DNA of 64,000 nucleotides from Catellicoccus marimammalium M35/04/3 (lineage in GTDB: Bacteria; Bacillota; Bacilli; Lactobacillales; Catellicoccaceae). The position numbers and the translations under genes are program-made. The stretch lies in assembly GCF_000313915.1 (NCBI RefSeq), contig NZ_AMYT01000008.1, forward strand, positions 1-64,000. The letters run 5' to 3'. Under the pieces are notes generated by a model. The model was not told the origin of the DNA, searched no databases, and was given only the letters and a program-made list of their open reading frames with translations. Shown piece by piece: positions 37,150 to 43,411 of this stretch (its first letter is position 1; each line of letters opens with the position of its first letter).

Positions 37150-39489
37150 CTATCCGTTCCCGTTTCCTTTAAACCATCCTGTTTTACAGTTAATTGTCAC
37201 TAGATAAACATGGATATTACTATTTGGATAGCCACTTAATGTACGAGAACGATTGTTTGTTCCATATAAATTATAATATCCTTCGCCATTTCTGACAAAA
37301 GCTTTCTCTAATGAATAACCATCGGGCGTAATGTATCCACGTTCAATACAAGTATTAATCACTTGTTCTTTTACCCCTTTGGCCCAAGCATAAGGACCTG
37401 TTTTATCTGAAGCCTCATCAGCCTTTTTCTTTGTTTCTTTTTCTGCTTTTTCCGCTTCTTTTTTAGCTTCCTCTGCTTTTTTCTTCTCTTCTGCTTCTTT
37501 TTTACGTTCACCAAGAACTTCTTTTACTTGTTTTAATTTCTTTTGTAATGATTTTTTCAAAGAAGTATTTTGTACTTTATCTACCAATTTTTCAGCATCT
37601 GTGCAATCTTCAGAAGTCACTTTATCTTTTACTTCTTTTCCTTCATATAAGTTAGAAACAGCATCTTTTGCTTCTTTTTGAGCTTCTGCCTGTCCTTTGG
37701 CATCTAAAATACATTCATTCACTGCTTTTTCAAAAGGAGTACTTGGATTTTTCACTGGGACAAATTCCACTTTTACGTTGTCTTTTAATCCCACTTTTTC
37801 GATTTTATCTCCTTTTAAAATTGGTGAAACAAAAAGATCATTAATTTTATTTGTTAGTTCCGTATTCTTTTGTAACTCTTGTAATTGTTTTGTTAGGTCG
37901 GAAGCTTTTTCTGGATCTTTTTTCTCTAAATCAGCGATTTCATCTTTTACATTGGCAATGGTTTTTGCACTCATATTTTTTGCCACAAAACCATCTTTTG
38001 CTTTATCACCCACATAATAATCATCGATTTGACGTTCAATTTTACGATAAGCTTGTTGTACTTCGGTGTGTTCTTTTTGTAAATGATAATAATATCCTCC
38101 ACCTGCAATCGCTAAAAGAACGATTACGAGTAGAACCCATGGCCAGTAACGTTTTTTCTTCGGTGTTCCTGGTTTCTTTTCTTCAGGCTCTTTTGGCGAT
38201 ACACTTGCTTCTAATAATTTCTGCTGTTTTTGTAGATTTTCTTCTTCTTCTTTCGTTAAACTAGGACCAGTAGGTGTACTTGTATCTTTTGAATCTTTTT
38301 TCTCTTCTTTATTTGGAGCAACAGAGGCCATGAAGACAGGAGTATTTTGAGTTGTATTTTCCTCTTCTTTCTCCTCTGCTTCTTCATTTTTAGCCTTTTC
38401 TTTTTGCGCTAACTCCTGTGCTTCTCGTTGTTCTATGATGTGTAAAATTTCATCTAGTTCTTGCAACGGACGAGTATAAGAATCTGTTTCCTCCTCTGTT
38501 TTTTCTACTTCTTTTCCTTCATGATTTACTGTTGAATTTTCTAAATCAGAAGGAGTTTCAGTAGATATAGATACTACAGACTCTGCTTTTGGTTCTTCTA
38601 CTTCTTTTTCTTCTTTTGTACTTTGCTCTTTTTGTTTTGGTGCTGTTACCGCACAAGTAAAGATAGGTGTAACTTCTTTCTTTTCTTCTTTTGGATTTGT
38701 TACTTCTTTTGATTCTACTACTGATGGTTCTTCATTATTTTCTTCTTTTGCATCTGCAGCTTCTACAGAATCATGTTCCTTGTCATCTTTTACTTTTTCG
38801 TCTTTAAATAAAGAACCATTACGCACTTTTTCTAATAAAGAAGGACCTTTTTTATTCTCTGTTGGAATCGTTTCTTTTTCTTCTAAAGGAGAGACAGACG
38901 GCTCTTCTTTTGCCTCTTCTTCTTTAGCGAAGAAATCTCCTTTTTTCGTTGGTTTTCGTTTTGCTACTTCTGATTCCATTGTTTTTGGTACTTGTAATGG
39001 AGTAGTTTCTTCCATTGAAGTACTTTCTTTTGGTAGAGGTGGAAGTTGTTTTCCACGTTCTTCTTGTTCCTCTTTCACATCATAAGTTTCTTCTGATTTT
39101 TTCAACACTTCTAATTTTTCTGAAGGAGAAGTTGGTTCTTCTTTACTAAACGCATGTAACGAACTTTGTTTTGTTGTTCTTTCTTTTGGAATTTCTTCTA
39201 ATTTTTGTTTAGAAATCGCTTCTCCTACTGTTTGTTGGAATTCTTTTTCTTTATCAAATTCTGGTTCAAAGTCTTCTTGATCCATATTTTGCTTATGGAA
39301 AATCTCTGTATGATGAACTTTTGAGGCTTGTTCTTTTGAAAAATCATAAAAAGATTGTTTTTTATTTTCTTTTACTGTGTCTTTTTCTCGGATGACACCT
39401 TTTGTTGCTGTGGAATGAAGATCACAACGTGGACAAAAATCTCCTTCCACCACGGACCCACAACGGGGACAATGTTTTACTTCTTTCAT
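37150..39489 (-). CDS. mapZ: MapZ-like division-site protein with N-terminal zinc ribbon
   Basis: This 779-residue protein has a zinc ribbon at its start (Cys7, Cys10, Cys19, Cys22: HCPRCG and FCPRCD), about 420 residues of Glu/Lys/Thr-rich low-complexity sequence, one membrane helix at about 448-470 (WPWVLLVIVLLAIAGG), and an outer part of about 310 residues. The outer part closely recalls streptococcal MapZ: a helical domain with INDLFVSPILKG, a Lys/Glu-rich linker, and a C-terminal domain with VINTCIERGYI, GEGYYNLYG and TINCKTGWFKGNG. MapZ binds wall at midcell outside and FtsZ inside, and is a StkP target. The ATG at 39489 follows GGATGAGG; a TTG 27 bases earlier is possible. The zinc ribbon is not in streptococcal MapZ as I know it. 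Confidence 0.85.
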   Translation of the reverse strand: MKEVKHCPRCGSVVEGDFCPRCDLHSTATKGVIREKDTVKENKKQSFYDFSKEQASKVHHTEIFHKQNMDQEDFEPEFDKEKEFQQTVGEAISKQKLEEIPKERTTKQSSLHAFSKEEPTSPSEKLEVLKKSEETYDVKEEQEERGKQLPPLPKESTSMEETTPLQVPKTMESEVAKRKPTKKGDFFAKEEEAKEEPSVSPLEEKETIPTENKKGPSLLEKVRNGSLFKDEKVKDDKEHDSVEAADAKEENNEEPSVVESKEVTNPKEEKKEVTPIFTCAVTAPKQKEQSTKEEKEVEEPKAESVVSISTETPSDLENSTVNHEGKEVEKTEEETDSYTRPLQELDEILHIIEQREAQELAQKEKAKNEEAEEKEEENTTQNTPVFMASVAPNKEEKKDSKDTSTPTGPSLTKEEEENLQKQQKLLEASVSPKEPEEKKPGTPKKKRYWPWVLLVIVLLAIAGGGYYYHLQKEHTEVQQAYRKIERQIDDYYVGDKAKDGFVAKNMSAKTIANVKDEIADLEKKDPEKASDLTKQLQELQKNTELTNKINDLFVSPILKGDKIEKVGLKDNVKVEFVPVKNPSTPFEKAVNECILDAKGQAEAQKEAKDAVSNLYEGKEVKDKVTSEDCTDAEKLVDKVQNTSLKKSLQKKLKQVKEVLGERKKEAEEKKKAEEAKKEAEKAEKETKKKADEASDKTGPYAWAKGVKEQVINTCIERGYITPDGYSLEKAFVRNGEGYYNLYGTNNRSRTLSGYPNSNIHVYLVTINCKTGWFKGNGNG

Positions 39490-39735
39490 TTTCCTCATCC
39501 TATTTGTATTATTCAATATAATATTATAACAGATAACCGATTAGAACCCATCTTTTTTTCTCTCTAATTTTATATTTTTTTATTGCTTTTTTTCTTTTCT
39601 CTTTTTTCTTTTTTAAACGATAATCCTCCGTCATCATTTTAAGTTATTTTTTGGTTAACAAAAATATCCTAAGCTTTTTATAAAAAGAATGTCTTTTCTC
39701 TACTTATTTTGTTTCTTTCTATTATAATAAGGAAC
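39490..39735. other. intergenic region between mapZ and mvaS
   Basis: About 245 T-rich bases upstream of two divergent genes. A TATAAT at 39724-39729 is the likely -10 of mvaS, with only a weak -35 (TACTTA, 39701-39706). No ORF with a ribosome site and no recognisable RNA is seen in the rest. Confidence 0.5.
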
Positions 39736-39841
39736 GGAGAGGAAATCGCTGTCATCGATTTCTCTTATAGTACGGCCTCAATGATAAAGAGACCAACGAG
39801 AAAGAAAGGAGATTACTAGTTTTTCTAGTAAATATATCGTT
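39736..39841 (+). promoter_or_regulatory. structured mvaS leader with a hairpin between Shine-Dalgarno and start codon
   Basis: The expected leader contains a first stem-loop (GAGgAAATCG with CGATTTCTC, 39739-39764), a weaker one (GGcCTC with GAGaCC, 39774-39795), then AAAGGAG at 39805-39811, and a perfect seven-pair hairpin TTACTAG/CTAGTAA with a T5 loop (39813-39831). The mvaS ATG is at 39842, 30 bases beyond the ribosome site; folding out the hairpin leaves 11 bases. A 12-codon frame without its own ribosome site (39781-39819) ends in the hairpin. Confidence 0.6.
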
Positions 39842-41011
39842 ATGAATATCGGAATTGATAAAATAAATTTCTTCACACCTAATGCTTACGTGGATCTTGT
39901 AGATGTTGCGAATGCTCGTGGTATCGATCCAAATAAATTTACTATTGGAATTGGCCAAAATGAAATGGCACAACAACCAAGAACACAAGATGCCTATACA
40001 ATGGCAGCGAATGCTGCTTATCCATTAATGGATGAAATTGAAAAAGAAAAGATTGACCTAATTATTTTTGGGACAGAATCTGCCTCTGATGCTTCTAAAT
40101 CAGGTGCGGTTATTTTACAAAACTTATTAGGGATTCAAAAATATTGTCGTTGTTACGAAATTAAACAAGCTTGCTATGGAGCTACTGCTGGTTTAATGAC
40201 GGCAATTTCTCATATTCATCAACATCCAGAAAGTCGTGTGTTGGTCGTTGGTAGTGATATTGCTCGTTATGGTTTAGCTACTGGCGGAGAAGTAACACAA
40301 GGTGCAGGTGCTATTGCTATGATTATTAGTGCTAACCCTTCCATCATGACTTTTGATGAAAAAACGGTTGCTTACTCTGAAGATATTTATGACTTCTGGC
40401 GTCCAAACTACTCTAGCACTGCTTTTGTTGATGGAAAATTCTCAAATGAAGCTTATATCCGCTTCTTTAACGAAACCTTCCATGGATATTGTGAAAAATA
40501 TGGTACTTCTTTAGATGATTTTGGTGCTTTGTTATTCCACATGCCTTATACAAAAATGGGATTAAAAGCATTGCGTTCTGTCTTAGAAGAAGGATCAGAA
40601 GAAACTCAAGAACGTCTAACAAACCATTATGAAAAAGCAGCGATGTATACTCGTCGTATCGGAAACTTATATACCGGTTCTTTATACTTAAGCTTAATTT
40701 CTTTATTAGCCAATGATGAAAACATCTCAACCGAAGATACGATTGGTCTATTTAGTTATGGTTCTGGTGCGGTAGGTGAATTCTTCACTGCTAAATTAGT
40801 TCCAGGATATGAAAAACATATTCATAAAGAAGATTACGAAGCGTTATTAAATCGTCGTGTTCGCTTCACAGTAGAACAATATGAAGATTTATTCAATCAA
40901 ACTTGGTTAGAAGAAGATGGATGTGAAACTTACCAATGTGACTTTGATGACGCTCCATTCCAATTAGAAAAAATTTGTGATCATCGTCGTTACTACAAAG
41001 GAGGAAAATAA
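39842..41011 (+). CDS. mvaS: hydroxymethylglutaryl-CoA synthase
   Basis: MvaS condenses acetyl-CoA with acetoacetyl-CoA to HMG-CoA, the entry to the mevalonate route to isoprenoids. The 389 residues match enterococcal and staphylococcal enzymes. The catalytic Cys111 is in KQACYGATAG, with the general acid Glu region near residue 79 (FGTESASDAS), and the His in LLFHMPYTKMG near residue 233. No other ATG, GTG or TTG lies in frame upstream, although the ribosome site is 30 bases away behind a hairpin. It is first in the set mvaS-thiolase-HMG-CoA reductase. Confidence 0.97.
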   Translation: MNIGIDKINFFTPNAYVDLVDVANARGIDPNKFTIGIGQNEMAQQPRTQDAYTMAANAAYPLMDEIEKEKIDLIIFGTESASDASKSGAVILQNLLGIQKYCRCYEIKQACYGATAGLMTAISHIHQHPESRVLVVGSDIARYGLATGGEVTQGAGAIAMIISANPSIMTFDEKTVAYSEDIYDFWRPNYSSTAFVDGKFSNEAYIRFFNETFHGYCEKYGTSLDDFGALLFHMPYTKMGLKALRSVLEEGSEETQERLTNHYEKAAMYTRRIGNLYTGSLYLSLISLLANDENISTEDTIGLFSYGSGAVGEFFTAKLVPGYEKHIHKEDYEALLNRRVRFTVEQYEDLFNQTWLEEDGCETYQCDFDDAPFQLEKICDHRRYYKGGK

Positions 41012-41012
41012 G

Positions 41013-42143
41013 ATGAAAATTGCGATTGTCGGAATGAATCGTACTCCTTTTGCTAAATTCAATGGGGGCTTTAAAGACTTAGCCCCTAATGAAATTGCAG
41101 CAGCAGCAGTAAAAGGACTATTGGATAAAGAACCAAAATTAAAAGATTTATGCGATAAAGTAATTTTAGGTGAAGTCTTTGGTGCTGGAGTAGGACAAAA
41201 CCCTGCTCGCTTTGCCGCAATAAAAGCAGGATTATCCGAAAAAGTAACGGCAATGACCGTTAATCAAGTGTGTGGTTCTGGCTTACTTTCTTTAGATCTA
41301 GCAGCTCAAATGCTAGAAACTGGCCGTGCTCAATGTATTATCGCTGGTGGCGTGGATAGTTTTACAAAAACCCCTCTATTAAAAGACCGCTTTACTGAAG
41401 AAATTACAGATAGTTTTGATGATGGGTTAGCGGATGACTTTTCTCATGAGAAAATGGGAGTTACTGCAGAAAATGTAGCTCGTGCTTTCCATATTACTCG
41501 TGAAGAACAAGATGCCTTTGCTTATCAGTCTCAACAAAAAGCAAAAGCAGCTCAAGACGCAGGAAAATTTGCGCAAGTCATCACTCCTGTTGCAGGGATT
41601 GAAGCAGATGAATGCCTGCGCCCTACAACTTCTTTAGAAAAATTAGCTACCTTAAAGACTGTTTTTGCAGAAGATGGTACAGTTACCGCAGGAAATAGTT
41701 CTGCTTTAAGTGATGGAGCAGCAGTAGTTGCGTTAATGACAGAAGAAAAAGCAAAAGCAGAAGGATTACCTATTTTGGCAACGATTCAAAACTTTGTCGA
41801 AGTAGGAATGGATCCAGAATATATGGGTGTTGCTCCTATTTTGGCGATTCAAATGTTATGTCAAAAAGAACATCGCACCATCGATGATTATGATTACATC
41901 GAATTAAATGAAGCTTTTGCGAGTCAATCCGTCGCTTGTCAAAAAGAATTAAACATTCCAAAAGAAAAATTAAATATTTGGGGTGGCGCAATTGCTCTTG
42001 GTCATCCTCTAGGTGCTAGTGGAACTCGCTTAGTCATGCAAATGGTTCAACAGCTAGAAGAAAATGATAAACATTTAGGGCTAGTTTCTCTATGTATTGG
42101 TGGCGGAATGGGTATGGCCCTTGAGGTTGTGAGAGACAAATGA
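41013..42143 (+). CDS. acetyl-CoA acetyltransferase (thiolase)
   Basis: The enzyme joins two acetyl-CoA to acetoacetyl-CoA, the substrate of MvaS. The 376-residue protein has the acyl-carrying Cys87 in NQVCGSGLLS, the NEAFASQ motif, the GGAIALGHPLGASG His region, and the second Cys in LCIGGGMG. The ATG at 41013 follows AAAGGAGG that overlaps the mvaS end. The stop overlaps the next start in an ATGA. In Enterococcus this domain is the N-terminal half of the fused MvaE; here it is a free protein. Confidence 0.95.
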   Translation: MKIAIVGMNRTPFAKFNGGFKDLAPNEIAAAAVKGLLDKEPKLKDLCDKVILGEVFGAGVGQNPARFAAIKAGLSEKVTAMTVNQVCGSGLLSLDLAAQMLETGRAQCIIAGGVDSFTKTPLLKDRFTEEITDSFDDGLADDFSHEKMGVTAENVARAFHITREEQDAFAYQSQQKAKAAQDAGKFAQVITPVAGIEADECLRPTTSLEKLATLKTVFAEDGTVTAGNSSALSDGAAVVALMTEEKAKAEGLPILATIQNFVEVGMDPEYMGVAPILAIQMLCQKEHRTIDDYDYIELNEAFASQSVACQKELNIPKEKLNIWGGAIALGHPLGASGTRLVMQMVQQLEENDKHLGLVSLCIGGGMGMALEVVRDK

Positions 42144-43411
42144 ATGAATTAGACACGCACAAATTTTATGAATGTTCTATTGAAGAACGAAAAGAACGTT
42201 TATTAGAAGCAGGATATACTAACAATACATTAAACATTTTGATGTCTCAATATTTACTGAGCCCTGAAATTGGAGATCATTTAGTGGAAAATTATATTGG
42301 TAATTTTGATATTCCTATGGGTCTTGGTTTAAATTTTGTCATCAATAAAAAAGATTATGTTATTCCTATGGCTACAGAAGAGCCTTCAGTTATTGCTGCC
42401 GCAAGTAATGCTGCGAAAATGGCTAAAAAAGGCGGCGGTTTTCATACAAAAATGGAACACAAATATGCTACAGGTGAAGTTGTATTAACCAATATTCCTG
42501 ATTTAGCTACCGCCATCCAAACATTAGAATCCCACCGAGAAGAAATCATTGAAGAAACCAATCAATATCACCCTTCTATTGTCGAGCGTGGAGGTGGGGT
42601 AAAAAATATTCAAGTCTTAACTAAAAATTCTTCTAGTCATGAATTTTTAACAGTTCTCTTCTTTATCGATACAAAAGAAGCCATGGGAGCTAATATTGTA
42701 AATACGATGATGGAAGGAATTGCTCCGACACTGGAAAAATGGACCGGTGGTGAAAAATTACTTGCCATTTTAAGTAATTTACCAACCGAAGCAGTAGCGA
42801 GTGCTTCTACTTGTATTCCCTACTCTGCTCTTGGAAAAACAGAAGAAGAAGGAAAAGAATTAGCTGAACGTATTGTGCTGGCAACAGAATATGCCAACAC
42901 TGATCCTTATCGAGCTGTGACTCATAATAAAGGAATTATGAATGGTGTGCATGCTGTGGCTTTAGCTACAGGAAATGATACTCGTGCTGTGGAATCTGCT
43001 GTGCATGCTTATGCCGTTCGCTCAGGACATTATCAAACATTATCCTATTGGCATCTATCTGATGAGGGATTATGTGGAGAAATCTCACTTCCTCTAGCAT
43101 TAGGTACAGTAGGTGGAGCAATTCGTGTTTTACCAAAAGCAAAAGCGAATTTATCGTTACTTAACCATCCATCCAGTCGAAAATTAGCTCAAATTATGGC
43201 AGCTGTAGGACTAGCACAAAACTTAGCCGCCTTAAAAGCTTTGGTTAGCGAAGGAATTCAACGAGGACATATGAGTCTTCACGCCAATAGTTTAGCAATC
43301 CATGCAGGAGCGATTGGCTCTGAAATTGAAAAAGTGGCGACTTATCTTAAAGAAAATCAATGTCTAAATTCAACAGCAGCGAAAGAATATTTAAATAAAA
43401 TACGTAAATAA
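42140..43411 (+). CDS. mvaA: hydroxymethylglutaryl-CoA reductase, class II
   Basis: This enzyme reduces HMG-CoA to mevalonate. The 423-residue protein has the class II motifs ENYIGNFDIPMGLG, ATEEPSVIAAAS with the catalytic Glu (residues 80-81), the nucleotide-binding LGTVGG near residue 320, and the C-terminal SLHANSLAIHAGAIG with the catalytic His. No membrane segment is present. It overlaps the thiolase gene by four bases (ATGA), so translation is coupled. Together with the thiolase (376 + 423 = 799) it adds up to about the length of enterococcal MvaE, which is one chain. Confidence 0.96.
   Translation: MNELDTHKFYECSIEERKERLLEAGYTNNTLNILMSQYLLSPEIGDHLVENYIGNFDIPMGLGLNFVINKKDYVIPMATEEPSVIAAASNAAKMAKKGGGFHTKMEHKYATGEVVLTNIPDLATAIQTLESHREEIIEETNQYHPSIVERGGGVKNIQVLTKNSSSHEFLTVLFFIDTKEAMGANIVNTMMEGIAPTLEKWTGGEKLLAILSNLPTEAVASASTCIPYSALGKTEEEGKELAERIVLATEYANTDPYRAVTHNKGIMNGVHAVALATGNDTRAVESAVHAYAVRSGHYQTLSYWHLSDEGLCGEISLPLALGTVGGAIRVLPKAKANLSLLNHPSSRKLAQIMAAVGLAQNLAALKALVSEGIQRGHMSLHANSLAIHAGAIGSEIEKVATYLKENQCLNSTAAKEYLNKIRK

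Follow-up and report, generated by a model that had tools for sequence, protein, structure and literature searches.

The mvaS gene of Catellicoccus marimammalium, a Lactobacillales species of the gull gut with a reduced genome (PMC3569323), is preceded by a strong Shine-Dalgarno (SD) sequence that lies 30 nt ahead of the start codon; a hairpin in the spacer shortens this distance to 11 nt when folded. The same layout, with the foot of the hairpin at a fixed 10 nt before the start codon, recurs at about 10–14 genes, mvaS included, or ~1% of the genes of this organism. We propose, with a probability of roughly 0.7, that mvaS carries a constitutive bridged or ‘split’ ribosome binding site (RBS) as one member of this class, and that the hairpin is not a sensor. 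Here we describe the mvaS leader within a window of 64,000 nucleotides (the whole stretch of DNA that was analysed) and place it in the context of the genome, which comprises 23 contigs and 1,284,694 bases.

Read base by base on the forward strand, the region immediately before mvaS (39805–39844) has the order AAAGGAG-A-TTACTAG-TTTTT-CTAGTAA-ATATATCGTT-ATG. The SD sequence AAAGGAG occupies 39805–39811, and no start codon is found at normal spacing from it. A single nucleotide separates it from the bridging hairpin (39813–39831), identified by direct reading and by folding, in which the arms TTACTAG (39813–39819) and CTAGTAA (39825–39831) form a 7-bp stem around the loop TTTTT (39820–39824; UUUUU in the RNA). 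The linker ATATATCGTT (39832–39841) spans the 10 nt from the hairpin to the ATG at 39842, a distance common to the class, and the folded path thus amounts to 1 + 10 = 11 nt. The gene itself (39842–41011, forward strand) encodes a hydroxymethylglutaryl-CoA synthase of 389 amino acids (TIGR01835) that aligns from residue 1 with the solved HMG-CoA synthases 1xpk and 1x9e; the start codon is correct because Met1 pairs with Met1 of both structures, and the interval between the in-frame stop TAA (39785–39787) and the ATG holds no in-frame ATG, GTG or TTG. An initial annotation had placed AAAGGAG 30 bases from the only possible ATG and had noted a perfect seven-pair hairpin that cuts the spacing to 11 bases, and both readings are borne out. 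Two hallmarks of a split RBS are present at mvaS: a strong SD separated from the start by more than about 20 nt, with none at normal spacing, and a hairpin lying wholly between SD and start that makes the spacing usable (from 30 nt to 1 + 10).

Further upstream, a probable −10 box TATAAT (39723–39728, forward strand) would place the start of mvaS transcription near 39735; the extent of the leader can only be inferred, because the −35 region is poor (about three matches of six) and a consensus scan listed no promoter before mvaS. The leader also contains the two additional features that the initial annotation had pointed out. A second hairpin (39742–39762, forward strand) is formed by GAAATCG (39742–39748) and CGATTTC (39756–39762) around the loop CTGTCAT, and 2.2% of shuffles give a stem like it. 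The 12-codon frame MIKRPTRKKGDY (39782–39820, forward strand) has its stop within the stem of the bridging hairpin. A leader-peptide attenuator would have a translatable leader frame with an SD, together with competing structures; here the frame is present, without an SD of its own. Frames of at least 10 codons occur in 13.5% of shuffled leaders, and this one is probably due to chance. Divergent from mvaS, on the minus strand (37150–39516), lies a gene for a Glu/Lys-rich protein of 788 residues that has a zinc-ribbon-like motif at its N terminus and for which a membrane stretch is predicted. Downstream of mvaS (41013–43411), acetyl-CoA acetyltransferase and HMG-CoA reductase are encoded by separate genes that overlap at ATGA. 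In enterococci the two enzymes are fused as mvaE.

Taken singly, the mvaS hairpin is only suggestive and its statistical evidence marginal. Among dinucleotide shuffles of the spacer, 1.6% contain a stem of 7 bp or more, and the folding energy of the whole leader is ordinary (z of 0.07 in one run and about −0.5 in another). What makes the case strong is that the layout recurs, with constant geometry, throughout the genome. Several of the genes that lack a near SD proved to have it, and a scan covering 1.25 Mb (some 98% of the total sequence) brought out the order strong SD, 0–5 nt, hairpin, exactly 10 nt and start codon at a set of genes. Alongside mvaS, which shows the exact 10-nt distance from stem foot to start, the class includes ackA (acetate kinase, TIGR00016), hslV (NF003964), atpD with a 5-bp stem (TIGR01039), gyrB with a bulged stem and a GTG start (TIGR01059), argR, the phosphomevalonate kinase gene pmk (TIGR01220) and the genes encoding an M32 carboxypeptidase, a DUF956 protein and a 301-amino acid protein without a family name. 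The genes for YlbF, a CPBP-type protease and PncB also fit, but each has an alternative in-frame start upstream. Near-class arrangements, in which the stem foot is closer to the start, are found at deoD and a deoxynucleoside kinase gene (9 nt), addA (8 nt; TIGR02785) and radA (7 nt; TIGR00416). The member genes are unrelated and their stems share no common sequence; the stems are AT-rich and some are modest, with predicted energies of −3 to −7 kcal/mol. What they have in common is the position of the 3′ stem foot, constant at −11, while the distance between SD and stem is variable.

Individual loci have features of their own. The ackA hairpin (L232:1511–1545) contains an ATG from which a frame of 11 codons runs to a TGA stop that overlaps the start codon ATG of ackA. 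At ylbF, whose start is uncertain because of an in-frame ATG upstream, the hairpin is followed by seven T residues (L124:8488–8520), so that an intrinsic-terminator-like element stands between SD and start. At hrcA (C20:142208; locus L129, about 2209), a CIRCE-like inverted repeat (TTAGCACTC...) is located between AAAGG and the likely start; this hairpin is probably a DNA operator, the sole such case in the scan.

The significance of the 10-nt distance was assessed on 574 spacers from 395 genes without a near SD, by counting stems of at least 7 bp (and, separately, of at least 6 bp) that begin no more than 5 nt from the SD, according to the number of nucleotides b between the end of the stem and the start codon, and by comparing the counts with 300 dinucleotide shuffles. 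At b = 10, the 7-bp threshold gave nine stems where 0.38 were expected, with a shuffle maximum of three and a Poisson P of about 3e-10, a value to be read with the caveat that b = 10 was spotted in the data prior to testing, although correction for about 20 distances alters it little. For stems of at least 6 bp the corresponding figures were 12 against 0.96, a shuffle maximum of six and a P of about 5e-10. No other value of b showed a comparable excess among the 574 spacers. When the two of the nine 7-bp cases that precede uncertain starts are left out, seven remain against 0.38. When an SD was not required, 9 of the 21 hairpins at b = 10 had one just 5′ of the stem, the highest share among all values of b.

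By sequence comparison, the hairpin at mvaS is private to this lineage. It is absent from 44 related mvaS genes, all from outside the family, most of which have an SD 6–13 nt from the start; in a small remainder no near SD is recognised, and these genes do not show a comparable layout of strong SD plus hairpin. A search of viral contigs yielded no relative. Nearly all of the orthologues compared, 25 of atpD and 22 of hslV, carry an SD about 5–10 nt from the homologous start, which indicates that a hairpin was inserted between the ancestral SD and the start codon of these genes. The ordinary spacers of the relatives point to an origin of the class hairpins within this lineage. Applied to 1.2 Mb of four other Lactobacillales, the class rule returned a single match at b = 10 (Fisher P 0.003), which lies 19 codons within a longer frame and is probably an internal start. 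A covariance model was built from ten class members as a length-normalised set with trimmed loops and a normalised SD-to-stem gap; at E ≤ 0.6 it gave nine matches in Catellicoccus and none or one in each of 39 relatives, a comparison biased towards Catellicoccus since the model was trained on that genome. Six of the nine are class members, two (C7:36002 and C15:274326) fall outside the class and one (C3:2008) was not assigned. Under stricter filters, a search of 198 genomes of the order and 41 of the phylum returned three matches in Catellicoccus and at most two in any other genome; most matches outside Catellicoccus resemble SDs accompanied by weak stems.

The arrangement suggests the following route to initiation. 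The 30S subunit would pair with AAAGGAG, the spacer hairpin would remain folded beside the SD helix and be accommodated directly outside the mRNA exit, the paired SD lying farther out, and the 10-nt linker would reach from the stem foot to the start codon held in the P site. At mvaS the hairpin would have to fold because an open spacer of 30 nt is too long. Free AAAGGAG sequences in this genome most often lie 8 nt from the ATG, whereas the single-stranded path from SD to start around the class hairpins measures 10–13 nt, a difference that fits the need to cross the width of the helix as well. We infer that the hairpins fold in the cell, that the ribosome accommodates them and that translation needs the fold; against this, the stems are AT-rich and some of them modest, and ribosomes might unfold them. 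The fixed distance argues for selection acting on initiation, since a process operating at the level of DNA would be blind to the position of the start codon.

The rival that fares best, while still unlikely, is that the hairpins are tolerated insertions, palindromes that are neutral or mildly harmful in a reduced genome, that lower the efficiency of translation and that have been kept only in tolerable geometries. Their confinement to a reduced-genome lineage, their presence at unrelated genes and the ordinary SDs of the relatives would all be expected on this account; the exact 10-nt distance and the strong SDs, however, imply selection on initiation geometry. It differs from the split RBS mainly in history and not in mechanism. 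Loss of the ribosomal protein bS21, considered as a cause of hairpin tolerance, was ruled out as bS21 is present. Somewhat less plausible still is a second standard initiation signal, in which the ribosome or a structure-specific factor would be adapted to a stem foot at −11 and a gene set that includes two mevalonate genes would come under joint control.

The initial annotation had suggested that opening of the hairpin would turn translation off and that the leader could therefore respond to a protein, a ligand or temperature at the first step of isoprenoid synthesis. The mechanical half of this idea, that the hairpin must fold, is retained, given the recurrence at a fixed distance and the precedent of T4 genes 25 and 38; the regulatory half is not. 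Opening of the hairpin would indeed part the SD from the ATG, and two mevalonate genes (mvaS and that for phosphomevalonate kinase) belong to the class. Yet the genes and stems of the class are unrelated, the SD is situated outside the stem, the mvaS stem is predicted to be 81–89% paired from 20 to 50 °C, and the mvaS region matched no family in Rfam. A regulatory switch that governs mvaS by opening and closing is hence improbable, and sensing at the entry to the isoprenoid pathway is further disfavoured by the 44 mvaS relatives without the hairpin. The reading of the leader and the pairing prediction also speak against an RNA thermometer, whose SD or AUG would sit in a helix that opens at physiological temperatures, and no match was found to a riboswitch or other leader described in Rfam.

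The palindrome TTACTAG-N5-CTAGTAA is very unlikely to be the binding site of a repressor on the DNA. It is perfect, and the hrcA hairpin of the same genome resembles the CIRCE operator, but there is no second exact copy in the genome, two near copies that were inspected fall within genes, and the class members lack a common sequence while keeping an equal distance to the start. Palindromic operators recur as a sequence before co-regulated genes, and the mvaS palindrome does not. The view that the palindrome arose by chance because the spacer is AT-rich, and that the frame before it is likewise fortuitous, agrees with the single-gene probability of about 1.6% and a fold z of about −0.5, but is scarcely credible against the genome-wide excess at one geometry.

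The split RBS that we favour for mvaS has its closest parallels in phage T4 (Nivinskas 1999; Malys and Nivinskas 2009; reviewed in PMC3014915). Genes 25 and 38 of T4 have a structured spacer that brings the SD closer to the AUG, from 27 to 11 nt and from 22 to 5 nt, respectively, and destabilisation of the structure reduces initiation (PMC3014915). As we read them, the two sites are GAGG-c-CTCAAAG-AGTT-CTTTGAG-8 nt-ATG (gene 25) and AAGGAG-ag-GGGC-TTCG-GCCC-8 nt-ATG (gene 38). They share with Catellicoccus the distant SD, the intervening hairpin, the shortened spacing and the restriction to a lineage; they differ in that T4 employs the device in one or two phage genes, whereas in Catellicoccus it is found at about 10–14 bacterial housekeeping genes with the foot fixed at 10 nt. 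In the E. coli thrS leader, threonyl-tRNA synthetase binds the domains, which act as operator arms. This mRNA, too, has a split RBS, whose hairpin is accommodated by the ribosome without unfolding (PMC3936740). A hairpin held folded by the ribosome is what we propose for Catellicoccus as well; thrS, however, is a single long leader, whereas the Catellicoccus hairpins are minimal and without a common sequence. RNA thermometers resemble mvaS in having a hairpin in the translation initiation region; the mvaS SD, by contrast, is not part of the stem, whose folding should assist initiation instead of blocking it and which is not predicted to melt between 20 and 50 °C.

The only well-documented cases of initiation across a folded hairpin come from phage T4 and a small number of special mRNAs, and a partial literature search found no earlier report of a genome-wide bacterial class of hairpin-bridged RBSs; what is new here is the fixed 10-nt geometry that recurs over a bacterial chromosome. 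Start-site prediction generally presumes a linear spacer of about 5–12 nt between SD and start, and gene finders would mis-call or under-score starts that are bridged by a hairpin. With ~1% of its genes bearing a folded spacer, Catellicoccus would offer a natural series of unrelated hairpins for studying how the ribosome holds a structured spacer, and would make a curiosity of phage T4 into a class of bacterial initiation.
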